Part shown: positions 2,962-17,129 of the stretch, one piece after another
Numbering within the stretch: position 1 is the first letter of the stretch
Layout of the letters: every line of letters starts with the position of its first letter
Source: a virus
Virus record (IMG/VR): IMGVR_UViG_3300030000_000287
Location: 1 to 41,114 of that record
Strand: one strand, 5' to 3'
DNA: 41,114 nucleotides
The notes under the pieces: generated by a model
Database searches by the model: none
What the model was told of the DNA's origin: nothing
Seen by the model: only the letters and a program-made list of their open reading frames with translations
Translations under genes and position numbers: made by a program

Positions 2962-3002
2962 AACAACAAAAAAAGTAGCTACTAACTGGAATTAGTAGCT
3001 AC
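2962..3002 (-). terminator. Perfect 11-bp hairpin with T8 tract on the minus strand
   Basis: GTAGCTACTAA (2975-2985) and TTAGTAGCTAC (2992-3002) pair perfectly around a 6-base loop. The run of A at 2967-2974 is a T8 tract only when read on the minus strand; downstream on the plus strand the sequence is TCTAAAAC, without a T tract. It therefore looks like a terminator for leftward transcription, although no leftward protein gene lies to its right before 6388. It may also act as a plain 3' hairpin for the integrase transcript. Confidence 0.55.
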
Positions 3003-3040
3003 TCTAAAACAATAATTGAATATAGTTTTAATATTTCTTA

Positions 3041-3115
3041 TACCTTCCATTAAAAAAAGGTACTTAATCACTGTAAATTAAGTCTACCACAAAAATTTTA
3101 AAAATGGAAGTGGTA
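3041..3115 (+). other. Nested RNA-like double helix in gene-free region
   Basis: CTTCCAT (3044-3050) pairs with ATGGAAG (3104-3110), and TAC (3041-3043) with GTA (3113-3115) after a two-base bulge. Enclosed is ACTTAAT (3062-3068) pairing with ATTAAGT (3077-3083), extended by GGT/ACC flanks. This regular nesting in 75 AT-rich bases suggests a folded RNA or a protein-binding cruciform. No known family was recognised. Confidence 0.4.
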
Positions 3116-3129
3116 TGATTTATTAAAGT

Positions 3130-3640
3130 TACCCTTTTTTACAAATATATAACAAGAGGGGACTTAAAAGTAAGATGGAAGCTGACACCATCTATAAAAA
3201 ACATAGGGTTTAATGTAGCCAAAGCAAGAGAAATACATTCGGTCGTAATTATATTGTTACCTTGTAATTACGTGACGTCAGACCTTACGTGAAATTCTCC
3301 AAAGGTTGTTAAGGCTAAGGGATATAATATCCTATGTCAAAGAGGAGTGGAAAGTGGAAATCTTTTAATTAAGTGCTACATAGAGCAGTTGAAAAGCTGG
3401 ACAAGTCGGTTTATAAAGAGAAGGCTTGTTTTGATATGTATTTAATGTTGAGATACATTAAGAATTAGGTAATGTGATGCCGAGACCATAGGTTAATGTG
3501 GCAGGGTTTATACTCGATAATATCAGAATTGTACTTATAAAATTATTGGGTTAATTTTTTTATTTTGATTATTTTATAAGTGCAATTATTTCTATTTTAG
3601 GGAGACCTCGATAATACCTTGGCAATAACCATAGTCAAGT
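3130..3640 (+). ncRNA. Candidate large structured noncoding RNA, about 500 nt
   Basis: Between the integrase remnant and the next gene, 3003-3699 holds no protein gene that I can support, yet it is purine-rich and dense in helices. These include GATGG/CCATC (3174-3191), CGTAATTA/TAATTACG (3244-3272), ACAAGTC/GGCTTGT (3401-3428), ATGTAT/ATACAT (3436-3458), and a 17-bp helix 3527-3543/3571-3587 containing a single G-U pair. Near its 3' end a 12-base string (3599-3610) forms AGG-GAGA-CCT, a GNRA-capped hairpin, and the same 12 bases recur at 16042-16053 after the RNA polymerase gene. The plus strand is favoured because GAGA is a GNRA loop only in that direction. Large phage RNAs such as ROOL and GOLLD have this size and setting, but I cannot assign it to either. 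Confidence 0.4.
3527..3587 (+). repeat. 17-bp near-perfect inverted repeat
   Basis: The two 17-base arms at 3527-3543 (AATTGTACTTATAAAAT) and 3571-3587 (ATTTTATAAGTGCAATT) are reverse complements except for one T/G position that pairs as G-U in RNA. The 27-base loop is T-rich (seven T in a row). The single wobble-compatible difference favours an RNA helix over a DNA operator. Confidence 0.6.
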
Positions 3641-3699
3641 AGTTTAATCAAAATAACTAGTAAATACTTAAACTAAATACAAAGAAAGAAGTTGATAAT

Positions 3700-4402: not shown

Positions 4403-4496
4403 TGTGTCTAAACATGACGAATGATAAAACATTTAGGAGGTACATTATAACTGATAATTTTACTGGCTAATATATTTGTGAAAGGTGATGGGATAT

Positions 4497-6293
4497 ATGG
4501 AAAGCGTTGTAATAGGACGAATAGAAGATAAAATAGAAAAATATGTAAATAACAGTGACAATACCAAGGAAAAGGGAACTTTATTTTGTAAGTGGATATT
4601 AAAATATTTATTTGAACAATCAGACAGTGAAATTGGCGATATGTGCGAAATAGATGGGAAAAGTGATAACTCTATTGATGCATTTTTTGAAGAAGATAAA
4701 ATATTTAGAATAATACAGACCAAATATAATACGTCCCATAATTGGGCAGGAGTGGCTAAATTTATTGCAGATATGAAACGTATTATAGAATTTTCTAATA
4801 AGTATGTTGGAGATAATAATTTAGTTCCAGAAGTATGCAATAAGATTGAGCAATATTTAGAAGAAGATAAACATATAGAAATATATTATATTACTAATTC
4901 CAATTTCACTAAAGAAGAGAGAGAGAAGATAGAATTTGAACTAGATAAATTTGGAAGAGAGTTTGATTGCAAATTTAATAAAGTTACTTTACATATTTTA
5001 GATATAGAAGGAATAAAAGATTTTATAGATATGTCATTAGATATCATACCTAAAAAATATAGAAATGCAACTTCTAAGTTGATATTAAAAAACTATTTTA
5101 TAAGTAATATTACATATGTAGCTGAAGTAGAATTGAGGGATTTTGCTGAATTTGTAATGAAAAATAAAGAATATTTATTTTATTCAAATATAAGAAACTA
5201 TTTAAAAAGTACACCTGTTAATAAAGGAATAGTAAAAACATTTAAAGAAAAGCCAAAAGATTTTTGGTATTTTAACAATGGAATTACAATTGTTTGTGAT
5301 GACTTCAAACCAGAATCGGAGAAAGTATTAGAAATTTTTATGCCTCAAATAGTAAATGGATGTCAAACTGCCAATACTATACTTAATGAATACAGAAAAA
5401 TAAGCACGAATCAAAAAAAGCAGAAACAAGGGACTATTTTAGTTAAAATAATAAAGGATAAAAATAAAAAAGATGAAATTACACAGTATACTAATAGACA
5501 AAATTCTGTTTCGGGTAAGGATTTTTTTGCATTAGATATTTTTCAAAAGAAAATGGTAAAAGAATTTGAGAATCTAGGTTATTTTTATGAAATACAAAAT
5601 AAGTCTAGTATTGCTAGAAAGGTTTCTGAAATGGAAAAATACAAAGGTATGAATGAATTTAGGTATTTATTTTCACATAAATTTAATAATATACTTCAAG
5701 TAAAATTAGTAGTCCAAGCATTCGCATCGGCAATGTATTTTATGCCAGGAACAGCAACTAGTCGATCAGGAGAACTTATGGTATATGGTGAGAAATGGTC
5801 TAAAATTTTTAATGACAAAACACCAGAAAAACCTTTGAATTGGCTATATCCATTTGCGGTAATGACTTATGCTAAAAATAATTTAGAATATAATAATAAA
5901 AGTAGTGTTCTCTATAAGAAATATAGTTTAATGTTCTATGTAGCTTGCTATTTCAGATGTTTAGTTCACATATTTAAAGAAATTGAGTTAATAGGGAGAA
6001 GCGAAAATATTAATCCGTTAGAAATAGAAATTGAAAACTATACAAAAATTTTTAAGAATAGTGATGTTAATAAAGAAATATTAAATTTTGTAGATGGAGT
6101 TATAAAGAGGTTTATGAGGGATAAATCAATTACAGAAGCTATTAAAAAGAAATATGATAATCTAGATATAGCTAATTTTATGAAATCTGAAGTAGAAACA
6201 AATGAAACAATTAGAACTACACTAGACGAATTTATAATAGAAGAGCTACATGATAATAGAGAATTATTATCTACTATTAAAAAAATATACTAA
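4497..6293 (+). CDS. AIPR-family abortive phage infection protein
   Basis: AIPR proteins (PF10592) are abortive-infection defence factors, first described from lactococcal Abi systems. The start is set at ATG 4497, 9 bases after AAAGGTG; upstream in-frame GTG/ATG at 4485 and 4488 overlap that site. The protein is 598 residues. The family core is clear: YLFYSNIRNYL, FWYFNNGITIVCD (about 256-268), PQIVNGCQTANT (about 283-294) and TNRQNSVSGKDFFA (about 332). The N-terminus adds a nuclease-like signature, D61 (SIDAFF) followed by Q74-T-K76 (IIQTKY), matching the D...(E/Q)xK pattern of PD-(D/E)XK enzymes. It has its own promoter and terminator, and sits between integrase and immunity switch, the usual place for prophage-carried defence genes expressed in the lysogen. 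Trigger and target are unknown. Confidence 0.88.
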   Translation: MESVVIGRIEDKIEKYVNNSDNTKEKGTLFCKWILKYLFEQSDSEIGDMCEIDGKSDNSIDAFFEEDKIFRIIQTKYNTSHNWAGVAKFIADMKRIIEFSNKYVGDNNLVPEVCNKIEQYLEEDKHIEIYYITNSNFTKEEREKIEFELDKFGREFDCKFNKVTLHILDIEGIKDFIDMSLDIIPKKYRNATSKLILKNYFISNITYVAEVELRDFAEFVMKNKEYLFYSNIRNYLKSTPVNKGIVKTFKEKPKDFWYFNNGITIVCDDFKPESEKVLEIFMPQIVNGCQTANTILNEYRKISTNQKKQKQGTILVKIIKDKNKKDEITQYTNRQNSVSGKDFFALDIFQKKMVKEFENLGYFYEIQNKSSIARKVSEMEKYKGMNEFRYLFSHKFNNILQVKLVVQAFASAMYFMPGTATSRSGELMVYGEKWSKIFNDKTPEKPLNWLYPFAVMTYAKNNLEYNNKSSVLYKKYSLMFYVACYFRCLVHIFKEIELIGRSENINPLEIEIENYTKIFKNSDVNKEILNFVDGVIKRFMRDKSITEAIKKKYDNLDIANFMKSEVETNETIRTTLDEFIIEELHDNRELLSTIKKIY

Positions 6294-10206: not shown

Positions 10207-11007
10207 ATGAATAAAGATAGGATAAATATGCTAATTGCAGAAATAACAAAAAATATTACATGGGAAAAAGCCTTTAACTCCTTAGAGGATAAATTATTAA
10301 CCAAATCATTAGATAGTCTTGTAGAGCATGTAAACTTCAAAGAAAGAGAACTAGACAAACCGGCAGTAGATATATTTAATCTTCAAGAGCACGTTGATGA
10401 TGCTTTTGATTTGGAGTTGTTTGAATTAGTAGAAAAATTACCAGTTTGGCAAAATGAATACTTAGAAGCATCTAAAATATTTAGTGAAGCATTAGATAAA
10501 ATAAAAGAAAATGCTAGTGAAACTTGTAAAGCTATAAAGACTTATAAAGACGAATTTGACAATGAATTACGGCTCTATACAAGTACATCCGATAATATTA
10601 ATTTCAATACATTATATGCACGAGTTTGCTTATCAGATAAAAGATTAGAAGCTATTGTTAAAGCCTTAAAGGTTAATAAGATTGAAATTCAAGAAGAGTA
10701 TAACCTTTTGTGCGAAGATTTATTAATACTTAGTAGATTTGCAGTAAGAAAATATGATAGACACAATGCAAAGATGGATGAATTAAGAAAGCAATTAAAG
10801 AAACAGGAGAAAGAAAAATATAAAAAGATATTTCATTATAAAGATTTAGTGAAATTAGCTATTAAACAAGGATTTGAATGGGTTAGAACAAGTGGTGATC
10901 ATTTAATCTATAGAAATAAAAATCAAGATATAGCGATAATACCCGCTCATGTAAGTATGAAATATGGGACTATGATGAGTGTTCAAAAAATGATATTTAC
11001 TAATTAA
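10207..11007 (+). CDS. Coiled-coil protein with C-terminal HicA-like domain
   Basis: 266 residues; ATG at 10207 after AGGAGGAG. Residues about 1-200 are highly charged and helical (KELDKIKENASETCKAIK-type heptads; DELRKQLKKQEKEKYKK at about 190-206). Residues about 206-266 match the HicA mRNA-interferase (double-stranded RNA-binding-like) fold: KDLVKLAIKQGFEWVRTSGD-H232-LIYR ... IIPAH ... KYGTMMSVQKMI. H232 corresponds to the catalytic His of HicA toxins. No HicB antitoxin is encoded next to it, so this is probably a phage RNA-binding or RNA-processing protein rather than a free toxin. It lies just upstream of the helicase and RNA polymerase genes. Confidence 0.7.
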   Translation: MNKDRINMLIAEITKNITWEKAFNSLEDKLLTKSLDSLVEHVNFKERELDKPAVDIFNLQEHVDDAFDLELFELVEKLPVWQNEYLEASKIFSEALDKIKENASETCKAIKTYKDEFDNELRLYTSTSDNINFNTLYARVCLSDKRLEAIVKALKVNKIEIQEEYNLLCEDLLILSRFAVRKYDRHNAKMDELRKQLKKQEKEKYKKIFHYKDLVKLAIKQGFEWVRTSGDHLIYRNKNQDIAIIPAHVSMKYGTMMSVQKMIFTN

Positions 11008-11112: not shown

Positions 11113-12741
11113 ATGAAAGGTGAATATTATTTAACGGATTATATTTTAAAAGAAAATATTAAGATATCAAAAGGGTTTATAAATTTGTTTAATGCTCCAG
11201 CAGGAAGTGGAAAAACAAATTTTATATTTGCAGAGAATGGACTAATATATGATACTACAAAATTTATAAATTATGAAGGGTGTCATCCATATGCAAATAG
11301 AAAAATACCTAGAAAATATAATTTAAGCTTTAATTTAGATAAAATTTTATACATTTGTGATACTAGAATGCTTAAGGAAAAAGTATTAAGTAAATATAGT
11401 AGTATCACAAAAGGCTTTGATAAGAACTTTTTTAAAGATGCTAGAGATGATGATATTGTAAAAAAGGTTCTTGAGAAAAAAGGAAAAATAGCAGTCATTA
11501 CATATGCTCAGTTCGGTTGGATTATGGGCAAAAAAGTATTGAGAAATTTAATATATGACCAATTCGATTTAGTGATAATGGATGAATTTCATAACCTTTT
11601 TGATTATGCTAATAAATTTGATACTGAAGAAAAAACAACATACGGAAATATAATAAATAATTTAGGAGTCTTAGCACTAAACAATCTATTAGTTTGTTTA
11701 ACAGCTACTCCATATTATGCAAATAAAGGGATAGTAGGACAGAGCGATTTAAAAGAAGAATTATTTAACGTTATTTTAAATGATGAGCAAATTAAGAAAA
11801 TAAGGCAATATGAAGAGACATGGAATAAGAAAGAAGTCTATCCAATTAACGATATAAAGTGGATGTGTATAGATGGAAAAATAGATAAAATAAAAAACCG
11901 TAAATGGAAAGTTCTTATTTATACAACACAAATAAAGACTTGCAATAAATATAAAGAAATGCTAACTAATGCAGGTTATAAGGTAGAAGCTTTATGGACT
12001 CAAAGCAAAATGGATGATAGTCAAAAAGATTTGAAACAGTATTTAATAGAAAAAGAAGTATACCCAGATTATTTAGACGTGTTAATAATTAACAAAGCAT
12101 ACGATACTGGATGGGATTTAAAAGATGACCGAGTCCAATATGTAATTATAGATAGTTATAATATCACGATTCAAACACAAGTAAGAAATAGATGCAGGCA
12201 TGATATTGAAATGTTAACAACTAAATTATATGACGAGATTGAACATTACTGGAATGAAAAAGGACAAGAATGTTATGTTGAACATCACGAAACTTCACTT
12301 GTTTTTTCGTTAAATGAAGAATATTTAAATGCAAAACTAAATAATACAGTAAAGAAATTCTTGGTGGATAAATATGGGTCTGTAAATAATAAAGGTAGTT
12401 GCAATTGGAAAACTTTTAAAATTGACTTGAACAATAATGGATATATTACAAAAACATCAAATCATGGAACTTATATTTACAAAAAAGATGATGTAGAAAT
12501 AATTGATGAAAAAGTTGAGGTGAACAAAATGAACTATGGTGAATTATTAATTGACTGGATAGAAAATCAATGGGATAAATCCAGAATAACTATTAATGAT
12601 ATAAAAGATATTTTAGACATAGGAACAAAAACATTTAATGATTTGATAAAAAGTAAAACAATAGCTGATTATTTAAAAGAAAATCGTTACACAATATGCG
12701 TTCCTAAAGGCACTAAAACAAAATATCTAAGAAAATATTAG
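11113..12741 (+). CDS. SF2 (DEAD/DEAH-like) helicase
   Basis: 542 residues; ATG at 11113 behind AAGGAAGGA. An ATP-driven nucleic-acid helicase or translocase of superfamily 2: Walker A APAGSGKT (residues 28-35), motif II DEFH (157-160), motif III TATP (197-200), a C-terminal RecA-like domain with the motif V-like KAYDTGWDL, and motif VI-like QVRNRCRHD (356-364). The C-terminal 130 residues look like an added helical/winged-helix region (INDIKDILDIGTKTFNDLIK). It is the only helicase in the window and is immediately followed by the RNA polymerase gene, so it may serve replication initiation or transcription. It is not a DnaB/DnaC-type replicative helicase or loader. Confidence 0.88.
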   Translation: MKGEYYLTDYILKENIKISKGFINLFNAPAGSGKTNFIFAENGLIYDTTKFINYEGCHPYANRKIPRKYNLSFNLDKILYICDTRMLKEKVLSKYSSITKGFDKNFFKDARDDDIVKKVLEKKGKIAVITYAQFGWIMGKKVLRNLIYDQFDLVIMDEFHNLFDYANKFDTEEKTTYGNIINNLGVLALNNLLVCLTATPYYANKGIVGQSDLKEELFNVILNDEQIKKIRQYEETWNKKEVYPINDIKWMCIDGKIDKIKNRKWKVLIYTTQIKTCNKYKEMLTNAGYKVEALWTQSKMDDSQKDLKQYLIEKEVYPDYLDVLIINKAYDTGWDLKDDRVQYVIIDSYNITIQTQVRNRCRHDIEMLTTKLYDEIEHYWNEKGQECYVEHHETSLVFSLNEEYLNAKLNNTVKKFLVDKYGSVNNKGSCNWKTFKIDLNNNGYITKTSNHGTYIYKKDDVEIIDEKVEVNKMNYGELLIDWIENQWDKSRITINDIKDILDIGTKTFNDLIKSKTIADYLKENRYTICVPKGTKTKYLRKY

Positions 12742-13176
12742 ACCTTTTTATTGTTCTTAGAATAGTCATACCAATGGATATAAGGATTTATCTATATCAG
12801 AAGTGAGCAAAAGTGAAAAACAATATAGTATATAGGTTTTGATAAAATCTCACTTAGTATATAGTTAAATGTACTCTAGACCAGTAATACCAATGCTTTG
12901 AAGGGTGCAAAAGGTCTGAAAAATCTAAATAAAGTCATCATAGCCGTTTTTCTTTTGCCCTAGTGGTTTCTTTTGTCGGCTAGGCTATTGGAATGGTTGG
13001 TTGAGGTTTACCGAAACCCCATTGCTATAGGTTGGTAGAAACAAAAGAAAAGAACGTAAATAGAGTTGATATAAGTAGTTTAGGTGGATATGAGTCTTGT
13101 AGCTATCGCTACGCTTTCTTCCCTACGGTCAGAACAATACAAATTAAATTATGAAAAAGGAAGGATTGATTATATT
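12742..13176 (+). ncRNA. Long structured leader of the phage RNA polymerase gene
   Basis: 435 bases with no protein gene but many helices. AAGTGAG pairs with CTCACTT (about 12800 and 12848). GGGTGCAAAAG (12903-12913) pairs with CTTTTGCCC (12952-12960) with one bulge. TTTCTTTTGT (12967-12976) pairs perfectly with ACAAAAGAAA (13041-13050), enclosing CTAT/ATAG, AATGG/CCATT (12992-12996/13019-13023) and GGTTT-accg-AAACC. GTAGC-tatc-GCTAC sits at 13099-13112. TAGCC (12941-12945) and CCTAG (12959-12963) compete for GGCTAGG at 12978-12984, so alternative folds are possible. The local base composition is noticeably richer in G and C than the flanking genes. A cis-acting regulatory RNA, or part of a larger RNA whose tail is at 15934-16116, is plausible. 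No known class was recognised. Confidence 0.45.
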
Positions 13177-15933
13177 ATGAATAAACAAGTAAAAATGTAT
13201 TGTGTAAAATTAGGATTAGTTAGAAATGATGAAGAAAAAGAATTAGGTAATAAAAGAAATAAACTTAAACAAAGAAAATATAAATTTAGGGAAAGATATT
13301 CAAATGCAATAAAAAAAGGATTAAAAACAGAAAACTGGACTGAAGAATGTAGTGAAATATTTAAAGAGAGAATAAAAAATAGTAAATATTATTCACAAAT
13401 TGAAAAAGACTTGAGGCAAGTTAAAAAAGATATCCATGATTTGTATGTAAAAAATAAAGATTTAGATAGAAGTGTTAAATCTGAGAATATAAGAACAAAA
13501 GATATAATTGCCATAGGTGATAATAACTTAGTTAGGACATTAGGACTTGGATTAGGTACTTTTACAGATAAAATTATAACTGTTAAAGTTGGTGATATGG
13601 ATGATTTGATAATTAAAAAAATAATAAAAGATGGGTTGAAAGTTGATGATAAATCTTATATCTTTTTCACTGCTGGAGCAGGACAAACTAGGCAAAAGAA
13701 GTTCATGATGATTTTAAAGGATGTTTGGGATATATGTGAAAAAGCGTTAATGTGTGGTTTAAGTATTAAAGAACTTAATAAAAAAGGTTCATTAAATATT
13801 TCGAAGTTCCTTGCTTATTTAAGTTTAAATAATAGTGGATCAACTATATGGGGTGATGGATTTGATATAGATAAATGTATTGTGGTGGATGATTTTGAAA
13901 CAATGGTAAGTGCGACAGTAGATTATATTAGTAGAGAAACTAATAAAGTAGAAAAAACAATAGAGTTTGAAAGAAATGGTAAAAAAGTAACACAAAAAAG
14001 AAAATCTGATGTTGCTGAATGGAATATAATTAAAGGTAAAACAATGGATGTACCAGTACCACATTTTGATGGATTAGGTATCATGTTGCCAACATTAAGC
14101 AAAAAGAATATACAAGTTCGTTGCCCGTGGATAAAGGGGTTACTAACACCATTTAATTTTACTAAGTATATTGAAGAAAAAGGTTATAGCACAAAAGTTA
14201 CTGATATTTATGATAATGAATGGGATCTTATAGAAGATGATGTTCAGATAATTTTTACAAAGTCACAATTTAAGCTATGGAGCTTTTATAAAGATTGGGA
14301 GGATTATAAAAATAATTTTAAAGAATATAATTGCACAGCTAATATTTGTATGCAGGATGAAGACGAATATAAAGATATGGATATAAATTATCAAATGCTT
14401 CAACAATTAGTTAATATGTCAGATAAACAAATTGAAATTCTTTGTAAGGACTTTAAAGAGTTGATTAAAAAAGTACATAGTGACAGAAAATCTCAATTAG
14501 AGTTCTTAAAGGCAACAAATAAAAATGAACATAGAAATAATTTTCAAGAAGCTTTGAGAATATACCCAGAAATGCTTACAAGTGCTTATGTAAAAGATAA
14601 AATTTCTAAAACAATCACTAAAGCTAAAAAAGAAGCATGTAGCGGTAAAATAAGAATAAAAAATAGTAGAAGAGTTTTTATTCTTAGTGATCCAACAGCA
14701 TTTGCAGATTGGTTGTTTGGTGGTATCGAAGTACCAGAAGGCTATTTAAAAGATAATGAGGTTTACTGTAATTTATATAAAAAAGAGACTAAATTAGACA
14801 TTTTAAGAAGTCCAAGCTTATCATTTGAACATGTTATAAGAACTAATGTGAGAGCAACTAAAGGTGAATATAAATGGTTTAATACAAATGGAATTTATAC
14901 AAGCACACATGATGTAATTTCTAAGGTATTAAATTTTGATGTCGATGGAGATGAAGCACTCATTTTGGTAACAGATTGGATAATTGCTTTAGCTGAAGAA
15001 ATGATTAAAAAATATGATATTCACCCTATATATTTTGAAATGGATAAAGCAGGAGCAAAAGAAATAAATGGCGATAATATTGTAGAAAGTTTATTGTTCG
15101 TTTACCATAAGGCAAATATAGGTAAGGTTAGTAACACATTGACTAGAATTTGGAATAATGAAAATCCAATGCAATATTATGATATTATGCAAAAATTATG
15201 TGCACATAATAATGATGTAATAGATTCGGCAAAAACATTATCAATAAAAAAATTACCGAGTGATATAAAGGAAATTATTAAAAATGATAAATATCCTTAT
15301 TTCTTTCAATATGCAAAAAATAAAAAAGAATTACAATGTAAACAAATAAGTAATAGTGTAATGGATAGACTTTGCAAAAGTATAGAAAATATTAAAAATA
15401 CAAAATTTGATTATTCACAAGGTTTTGGAGCATTTAGAATGAAAACATTGATGTTTAATCAATATAATATTGATATTAATAAAGATGCAATAACTAAATA
15501 TTTAGAATTAGAAGAAGATACAACTGATAAAATTGATGAATACGCAAGAGAATTTGAAAATGAAGATGAAGAAGACATGAAGAAAACAGACTTTAAAGGA
15601 ATGTTTTATGAGACAGCAAGGAAAGATTTTGAACAATGGGCAGAGAATAATAATATAGAAATACTAGATGTGATTGATAGCATAATAAAATATACCTATA
15701 AAACAAATAGCTTGCATATGGCTTTTTTATGGAATGTTTTTGGACAAGAAATAATTAATAATATCAATATTAATATAAAGAAACCTTTAGATGATGGTTA
15801 TATGATATGTGAAGACTGTGGTAAGAGAGTAAAAAGAGAAGCAAATAATCAGCTAAGATGTAAAAAATGTGCTAGTAAAAAGAGTCATAAAAAATTAGAA
15901 AGGGATTCTGAAAAATCGTCTAAGATGGCTTGA
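13177..15933 (+). CDS. Single-subunit RNA polymerase of the YonO/QDE-1 (DbDGD) superfamily
   Basis: 918 residues from ATG 13177 (AAGGAAGG 12 bases upstream); upstream in-frame ATGs at 13084/13090 read through the structured leader and are less likely. Landmarks of the two-barrel RNA polymerase fold shared by eukaryotic RdRPs and phage YonO appear in order. FFTAGAGQTRQKK (163-175) resembles the FF..S.sQ.R motif. QVRCPWIKGLL (313-323) resembles QIRxxxxKG. ILRSPSLSF (R544-S-P) precedes IYTSTHDVISKVLNF. The catalytic Mg-binding loop is D588-V-D-G-D592. A C-terminal zinc ribbon (C878xxC881 ... C895xxC898) may contact nucleic acid. YonO of phage SPbeta is a DNA-dependent RNA polymerase transcribing late genes, and the same role is inferred here. 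A role in making primers is an alternative, since no primase was found. Confidence 0.85.
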   Translation: MNKQVKMYCVKLGLVRNDEEKELGNKRNKLKQRKYKFRERYSNAIKKGLKTENWTEECSEIFKERIKNSKYYSQIEKDLRQVKKDIHDLYVKNKDLDRSVKSENIRTKDIIAIGDNNLVRTLGLGLGTFTDKIITVKVGDMDDLIIKKIIKDGLKVDDKSYIFFTAGAGQTRQKKFMMILKDVWDICEKALMCGLSIKELNKKGSLNISKFLAYLSLNNSGSTIWGDGFDIDKCIVVDDFETMVSATVDYISRETNKVEKTIEFERNGKKVTQKRKSDVAEWNIIKGKTMDVPVPHFDGLGIMLPTLSKKNIQVRCPWIKGLLTPFNFTKYIEEKGYSTKVTDIYDNEWDLIEDDVQIIFTKSQFKLWSFYKDWEDYKNNFKEYNCTANICMQDEDEYKDMDINYQMLQQLVNMSDKQIEILCKDFKELIKKVHSDRKSQLEFLKATNKNEHRNNFQEALRIYPEMLTSAYVKDKISKTITKAKKEACSGKIRIKNSRRVFILSDPTAFADWLFGGIEVPEGYLKDNEVYCNLYKKETKLDILRSPSLSFEHVIRTNVRATKGEYKWFNTNGIYTSTHDVISKVLNFDVDGDEALILVTDWIIALAEEMIKKYDIHPIYFEMDKAGAKEINGDNIVESLLFVYHKANIGKVSNTLTRIWNNENPMQYYDIMQKLCAHNNDVIDSAKTLSIKKLPSDIKEIIKNDKYPYFFQYAKNKKELQCKQISNSVMDRLCKSIENIKNTKFDYSQGFGAFRMKTLMFNQYNIDINKDAITKYLELEEDTTDKIDEYAREFENEDEEDMKKTDFKGMFYETARKDFEQWAENNNIEILDVIDSIIKYTYKTNSLHMAFLWNVFGQEIINNININIKKPLDDGYMICEDCGKRVKREANNQLRCKKCASKKSHKKLERDSEKSSKMA

Positions 15934-16116
15934 ATAAAGGCTTGAGAGGTTATATGAAGAAAAAAATATTTTTTATAAATATGCTGTAAATGGCTTGTAC
16001 ACTAAGCTGAGAGCATATTTACAAATTACTAAGATGGATAGAGGGAGACCTCGTAATAAATCAGTAAGGTTTTGAACTTACACAAGGGTAGGATGAATAA
16101 TACTATCTTATCCTTA
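15934..16116 (+). other. Structured 3' flank of the RNA polymerase gene
   Basis: TAAATATGCT (15976-15985) pairs perfectly with AGCATATTTA (16012-16021). GAGG-GAGA-CCTC (16041-16052) is a GNRA-capped hairpin whose 12-base core 16042-16053 is identical to 3599-3610 and is followed in both places by TAATA. AAGGGTAGGAT (16084-16094) pairs over 11 positions with ATCTTATCCTT (16105-16115), two of them G-U. None has a T tract, so this is not a simple terminator. Confidence 0.5.
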
Positions 16117-16246
16117 AATGTGTATTTTGAATTTACTTATTTTTTATCAGATATAAATTATTATTTCTATATCAAACTAATTATATCATACTTTTTTATA
16201 TAAGCAATATGTTTTGTGAAAATAATGCAAATAAATTTATAGATAG

Positions 16247-16376
16247 GCAGTATATCTGCTGATTCCTTTTTATAATTTATTTTAATTTATTTGGTGGATG
16301 GATAGTTGAGTATTCAATTGTCTGTCTATCCATAGGTTTATTTGCAATCTGCATGATGATGTGCAGTGATTCCTTT
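16247..16376 (+). repeat. Repeated hairpin-plus-TGATTCCTTT element in a leader
   Basis: Two copies of a small module: GCAG-tatat-CTGC (16247-16259) followed at once by TGATTCCTTT (16260-16269), and CTGCA...TGCAG (16349-16366) followed at once by TGATTCCTTT (16367-16376). Between them ATGGATAG (16298-16305) pairs perfectly with CTATCCAT (16326-16333). The arrangement is upstream of the 16446 gene. It could be a tandem regulatory RNA, a protein-binding site, or paired promoters of the phage polymerase. Confidence 0.5.
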
Positions 16377-16445
16377 GTACGGATTTACTTCATTAAAAAT
16401 TATTATTATATGGTTATGCTACCAAGAAGGCAGAAGGAGAAGATT

Positions 16446-17129
16446 ATGAGTAAATTATCAAATAAGGAAATTAAGGAACTATTGAAGAACATCGAAGTAC
16501 AATTAAATGTACATGAACCTTGGGATGAAGAATTTTGGATTTACAAATTAGAATTATCTAAAGGTGAAATTACTTGCAAAATTTATGATGATAAATGGTT
16601 AGAGTATGTAATTAAAATTGAAGCAGCCGAAGATGTAATTAATATTTTAAAAGGGTTTATCTCATATTTATACAACAATGAAATAAATCACAGGCAATCA
16701 TTTATTAAAGGATCTGATGCTTTTAATAGAAGGAAAATAAAATCACTAGCAACATGGAGTAGTCGAGAAAATGAAGCTAAATGTAAAGATATTCAAGACG
16801 AAATGGTTGCAAGATTTAATATTGCTAAAAAAGTAAAATCAGAATTAGAAAGATATAAAAGATGGGTTTCAGATTTTTATGGGGTTTTAAATATATTAGT
16901 CCCATTTTACAAATCTGCGGAAATACATCAAGCTATATGGAAGAATTTAAAAGAGTTTAATATTGAAGATGTTGGTGTTACATATGTAAATGATACAGTT
17001 CATATTACTATTTTTGACAATGAAAAAGAAGAAATAAAGGACAGTTTTAAAATAATAGTAGATTCTTATAGTAATACTGGAATGACAGTTAATAATGCAA
17101 TACAACAAATTAGAAAGATGGTGGCTTAA
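16446..17129 (+). CDS. Hypothetical phage protein (227 aa)
   Basis: The start is set at ATG 16446 with AGAAGGAGAAG directly upstream; longer in-frame starts fall inside the repeated leader elements. Soluble, charged and mostly helical, with a WDEEFWIYKLELSKGEITCK stretch near the N-terminus. No family was recognised. It is coupled to the next gene by a two-base gap and shares the long leader after the RNA polymerase, so it may be an accessory or first target of that polymerase. Confidence 0.6.
   Translation: MSKLSNKEIKELLKNIEVQLNVHEPWDEEFWIYKLELSKGEITCKIYDDKWLEYVIKIEAAEDVINILKGFISYLYNNEINHRQSFIKGSDAFNRRKIKSLATWSSRENEAKCKDIQDEMVARFNIAKKVKSELERYKRWVSDFYGVLNILVPFYKSAEIHQAIWKNLKEFNIEDVGVTYVNDTVHITIFDNEKEEIKDSFKIIVDSYSNTGMTVNNAIQQIRKMVA

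Follow-up and report, generated by a model that had tools for sequence, protein, structure and literature searches.

What does the noncoding sequence around a phage gene for a single-chain RNA polymerase do, and does it belong to the polymerase? We examined this question in a viral record (IMGVR_UViG_3300030000_000287) whose full stretch of 41,114 nucleotides, here called the window, carries a polymerase gene of the YonO type between two noncoding flanks. An earlier note, made from the letters alone, had described a polymerase gene that seemed to divide a structured RNA in two.

The polymerase gene and its phage

The open reading frame at 13177-15933 on the plus strand (ATG at 13177) codes for a protein of 918 residues. 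We found all the landmarks named in the earlier note at the places it had given: FFTAGAGQTRQKK at residues 163-175, QVRCPWIKG at 313-321 and the catalytic DVDGD at 588-592 (14938-14952, plus strand), as well as the proposed C-terminal zinc ribbon, with cysteines C878, C881, C895 and C898 (residues 878-898; 15808-15870, plus strand). Residues D588, D590, G591 and D592 and the four cysteines were invariant in an alignment of 30 relatives. The protein matched phrog_8308 along its length (E 1.2e-262), and YonO of SPBc2 (SPbeta) aligned with it at 36.5% identity in one piece covering 85% (E 2e-128). The comparison with two-barrel enzymes that the note had proposed gave an RDR2/QDE-1-like two-barrel fold: the AlphaFold2 model had a mean pLDDT of 87.6, and a Foldseek search with this predicted fold retrieved plant RDR2 and QDE-1 (E 4e-17 to 2e-12). 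Homology over most of the length, the DxDGD motif and the two-barrel fold were thus all present, and sequence and model together indicate a genuine YonO-type two-barrel RNA polymerase, a new member of a rare known kind. DNA-dependent RNA synthesis and late-gene transcription have been demonstrated for SPbeta YonO only (PMC5467207).

The window also contains integrase, antirepressor, terminase, portal, protease, capsid and tail genes, and from this gene content the virus is a temperate tailed phage. Its nearest relatives were found in Clostridium and allied genomes and in viral contigs. Two further genes drew our attention: a 602-aa protein (4485-6293) matched the PHROG 'Abi alpha-like abortive infection mechanism' (phrog_1841, E 4e-46), and the last 50 residues of a 266-aa protein with a HicA-like look (10207-11007) matched a toxin-annotated PHROG (phrog_353, E 8.5e-8). 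In phi3T, Goe11, Goe14 and relatives (H10-H22), the yonO match ended at query residue 683, some records name yonO_1 and yonO_2, and the 3' element described below lay further downstream than the end of the match; these sequences suggest an insertion inside yonO in that group.

Two flanks with different properties

The leader (12742-13176, plus strand) comprises 435 noncoding nucleotides, as reported, with the upstream ORF ending at 12741; the words TAGCC, CCTAG and GGCTAGG are all present in it. Both flanks had been called rich in helices, which held for the 3' flank (MFE -44, z -3.66; 0 of 200 shuffles as good) and did not hold for the leader (MFE -95.6, z -1.01; 19 of 100 dinucleotide shuffles as good). 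A search of 50,697 phage records returned no match to the leader, the three closest relatives became similar to the window only from 13169-13179 onwards, and in four other loci (L012, L013, L015 and L092) another ORF ended 14-64 nt upstream of yonO. A single structured RNA interrupted by yonO, or an element in which yonO resides, would fit noncoding sequence on either side and the competing pairings that can be drawn in the leader; the idea fails because the leader lacks any match in the phage records, folds no better than shuffles, precedes the point at which similarity to the closest relatives sets in, and gives way to other genes in several related loci. Formation of the 3' core helices does not need the leader, and neither an intron nor any other Rfam match was found. 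We therefore regard this idea as extremely improbable and, on present evidence, do not count the leader as part of the element. Two leader words were also followed: ATACCAATG, present in two copies in the leader, was also seen in other yonO flanks, without significant enrichment in the window scan, and the motif RTAATACCAAYG was rejected as a signal (24 window matches against 18.5 expected, not significant).

The 3' flank is noncoding, as the note had stated, but longer than its figure of about 180 nt, with approximately 510 nt up to a likely start at 16446. Roughly the first 190 nt of this stretch form a conserved structured RNA element (15934-16125, plus strand, 3' limit approximate), located directly behind the yonO stop codon in the window and in all 10 clostridial relatives compared. 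The model R1, built from 11 sequences including the window, matched the element core once in the window (15995-16088, plus strand; 90.7 bits, E 1.2e-16). The core consists of helix 1 with a GAGA loop (GAGG-GAGA-CCTC, 16041-16052), a near-fixed linker GTAATAAATCA and helix 2 (GTAAG...CTTAC, 16064-16081), and is followed by a third, variable hairpin (16084-16115; all on the plus strand). Most relatives have a strong hairpin at this third position, with neither a consistent terminator nor a consistent U-tract at its tail.

The expectation of conserved, covarying structure in homologous flanks was borne out on the 3' side, in the two core helices, and not in the leader. Across the 11 sequences, all 99 cells of these helices were paired, 6 of the 9 pairs varied on both sides (3 of 4 in helix 1 and 3 of 5 in helix 2), and 14 cells carried double changes. 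In none of 500 shuffles did the pairing or the covariation score come up to that of the real sequences, and the pairing collapsed when the partner was slid by 1-3 columns. Folding favoured the sense strand (mean z -3.86, against -2.42 for antisense), with the lower energy on the sense strand in 11 of 11 sequences. In 10 of the 11 sequences helix 1 was capped by GAGA, which makes a GNRA loop on the sense strand only, and the sequence of loops and linker was conserved beyond the structure alone. The two core helices contained no G-U pairs.

No Rfam 15 family, with introns, riboswitches and 6S RNA among those covered, reached its gathering score in the window, and up to E 10 the region 12600-16500 gave only weak, implausible matches, leaving no credible intron or riboswitch. 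A riboswitch or leader serving the next gene was also rejected, since the first downstream ORF varies in length and place among relatives and the element stays with yonO. So was a guide-like pairing of the element elsewhere in the window, where the longest complementary matches were at shuffle level. The 3' RNA is real and conserved, outside Rfam 15 and undescribed in the open-access papers searched; its nature as an RNA and its tie to yonO are well supported, and any function is putative.

The conserved region could be read instead as the body of an antisense RNA that controls yonO from a converging promoter. In 10 of 11 clostridial loci the best promoter-like site of the flank was a minus-strand one, placed at a similar distance; in the window it is a possible sigma-A promoter (TTGCTT-16-TATAAT with TG, 16180-16207, minus strand), a score that 10% of shuffles reach. 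A simple consensus scan gave no excess of such sites over shuffles, and the fold belongs to the sense strand, which leaves an antisense RNA scarcely likely.

Distribution with and without yonO

We examined where the clostridial (A-type) element occurs. Against 100 loci, R1 recovered eleven clostridial yonO loci (two identical in sequence) and nothing else below E 1; the informative part is the lack of other hits, because most of the sequences hit had built the model. A strict 24-base pattern found six stretches in 2.9 million viral contigs, each on a contig for which yonO was detected as well. Of the 226 genomes examined from the order, yonO was found in 5 and the RNA in 4, with both together in 3; the fourth RNA genome was G132, discussed below. 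The element was thus found almost only beside yonO, and it keeps with this gene while the surrounding genes differ between clostridial phages. Further downstream, a noncoding block of the window (16332-16385) has an 87% identical counterpart in L194 (3753-3805), where the preceding yonO is only approximately 41% identical; the block is a candidate regulatory site.

In Bacillus and Paenibacillus phages a different motif (B-type, UAAGGGA...CUAAUAUACAAAG), built of the words UUAAUnGUCUUUAAGGGA-n-CUAAUnUACAAAGUnAAGAG-n-CCC, occupies the same place behind yonO; SPbeta, a B. subtilis phage in common laboratory use, has its own version (L007 6500-6690). The gap behind yonO was long elsewhere as well (median 228 nt; at least 100 nt in 87%, compared with 48% of other same-strand gaps in the same loci). 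The commonest words of these flanks were strand-specific: ATAAGGGAA was present in 19 of 120 non-redundant flanks against 0.42 expected, and its reverse complement was absent. RNAalifold found no consensus structure in the B-type set, and the B-type model R2 is therefore a sequence-only model. R2 also matched yonO loci outside its alignment, in the 3' flank and on the yonO strand (e.g. L093, L106, L040, L184, L021, L025, L077 and L039), and we set aside its matches in L206 and L207, beside or inside ordinary genes, which look like chance. The A-type and B-type are two elements in the same position that may share a common ancestry. The 3' flanks of Lachnospiraceae yonO loci (L112, L144) carried another strand-specific word set (GTTTTGTGCGTATAAG) beside the inverted repeat CGTTATTTACGG, which may represent a third form of the element.

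Three elements carried repeated units, and a profile search (run without a positive control) found no yonO in any of them. In G005, SPbeta-like units were arrayed in tandem within a region that also has genes named, from sequence only, as Rap/AimR-like and antirepressor-like. G132 had an A-type element directly behind a remnant of the YonO C-terminus (E 8e-8 against SPbeta YonO), and further repeated units between its integrase and capsid genes. G545 contained integrase, array, capsid, terminase and portal within approximately 12 kb, in the same order as in G132. The G545 capsid protein led to 36 viral contigs, most of them 12-17 kb long, only one of which (L239) had a full yonO; another (L232) kept a truncated gene for the YonO C-terminus (phrog_37506, E 3.4e-18). 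In about a dozen other contigs with related capsids R2 repeats were present, almost always on the same strand as the capsid gene, many of these matches being weak (E 0.003-0.5) and covering the model only in part.

An apparent YonO remnant in L229 was discarded as merely a shared zinc ribbon on another protein. This uncharacterised protein of about 410 aa, with a YonO-like zinc-ribbon tail, was found in L229 (2275-3504) and L232 (913-2148), 57% identical between them, and in L229 it adjoins the array region directly upstream. We also observed that the window has a long noncoding region (3000-3680) between the integrase and a small ORF, where 3176-3235 was 83% identical over 61 nt to noncoding sequence behind the G132 integrase (L204 9114-9173); L204 gave a weak ARRPOF match at its integrase-side noncoding region (E 9e-4). 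The two regions are possibly another large phage RNA.

Two other explanations of the 3' element bear on this distribution. The element could be a passive 3' UTR that acts in cis only, its helices shielding the yonO mRNA, taking part in its processing or contributing to transcript termination; its position right after the stop codon, its sense orientation and its strong hairpins suit such a function. That account does not cover the conservation of loop and linker sequence besides structure, is at odds with the lack of a consistent U-tract behind the third hairpin, and leaves the tandem arrays in elements without full yonO unexplained; we judge it rather unlikely. Alternatively, the conserved sequence could act as double-stranded DNA, i.e. 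a recombination, packaging or replication site or an operator array. Tandem repeats with palindromic words point that way, as does the candidate pac site of SPbeta mapped near yonR-yonP (PMC8270828), and a DNA role stays conceivable because the two core helices lack G-U pairs. The consistently better folding of the sense strand, the GNRA loop that exists on this strand only, the strand-specific enriched words and the location of the pac region on the opposite side of yonO all speak against a DNA element, and we consider it quite unlikely.

A possible role in late transcription

In SPbeta, YonO makes one late transcript that starts upstream of yonK and of an unannotated ncRNA, and the sequence and recognition of its promoter were given as an open question (PMC5467207). 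We placed the published start (168 position 2225998) at L007 7404 via the 168 coordinates in G038, approximately 900 nt behind yonO and outside the element, with no words shared between start site and element beyond chance. For these two reasons we rejected the element as the YonO promoter, and it is probably not the promoter itself. The SPbeta late transcript opens with about 1.25 kb of apparently noncoding sequence (L007 7404-8680, SPBc2), inside which lies a DUF3800-VIII RNA (RF03075, at L007 8381-8446).

Given its conservation with the polymerase, its absence from the RNA catalogue and its likely kin as arrays in polymerase-less elements, the 3' RNA may therefore be a signal through which the polymerase is controlled. 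Our preferred reading is that the element acts, as RNA, as a control signal for YonO-dependent late transcription; we hold it tentatively, at a probability of a little under 0.4. Linkage to the polymerase, the sense orientation and the arrays before capsid genes after loss of yonO are best explained by such a role. Counted in its favour were the covariation of the core helices, sense-strand stability, linkage to yonO, the R2 matches outside the R2 alignment, the arrays without a full yonO, and the late transcription by YonO in SPbeta (PMC5467207); against it we counted the SPbeta start, some 900 nt away with no words shared beyond chance, the no more than possible kinship of the A-type and B-type elements, the mostly weak and partial array matches, and the lack of G-U pairs in the core helices, which suits a DNA role.

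Under this control-signal reading, the host polymerase would transcribe yonO and the element together, and the folded RNA would be recognised by a late factor or by YonO, perhaps via its zinc ribbon and basic tail; these parts are named as a possible contact only because they remain before the G132 array. The folded RNA could then control YonO-dependent late transcription, either through feedback on the polymerase itself or by tagging phage transcripts. In satellite-like elements that have lost yonO, the unit might be retained and amplified as a means of exploiting a helper phage's YonO, or of titrating it. The fullest form of this proposal is a new class of RNA with single-chain YonO, linked to yonO and bound by the enzyme, that controls or directs late transcription and is arrayed before the capsid genes of yonO-less satellites to hijack or starve the helper polymerase; we find it doubtful. 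A structured RNA that travels with a polymerase gene, and seemingly outlives it in satellite-like elements, would be a candidate for the missing regulatory partner of YonO and, if the reading is true, would provide a further connection of phages with satellites, at the level of transcription.

Several known systems resemble parts of this locus. The array-bearing G545 element and the contigs with related capsids carry integrase, capsid, terminase and portal genes like those of capsid-forming phage satellites (cfPICI-like), of which they are candidate members. The phage ncRNAs DUF3800-VIII and ARRPOF of Rfam occur in the same kinds of elements (the SPbeta late ncRNA and the weak L204 match, respectively), and neither matches the 3' element. 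QDE-1 and plant RDR2 are cellular RNA-dependent enzymes of RNA silencing; the window protein resembles them in its predicted two-barrel fold, at about 12% identity. Finally, the closest known counterpart is SPbeta YonO (Forrest et al. 2017, PMC5467207), a homologous single-chain two-barrel polymerase with the same catalytic motif, encoded in a temperate phage by a gene ahead of the late genes; it differs from the window protein in sequence (36.5% identity), and its gene is followed by the B-type motif, whereas that of the window is followed by the clostridial element.
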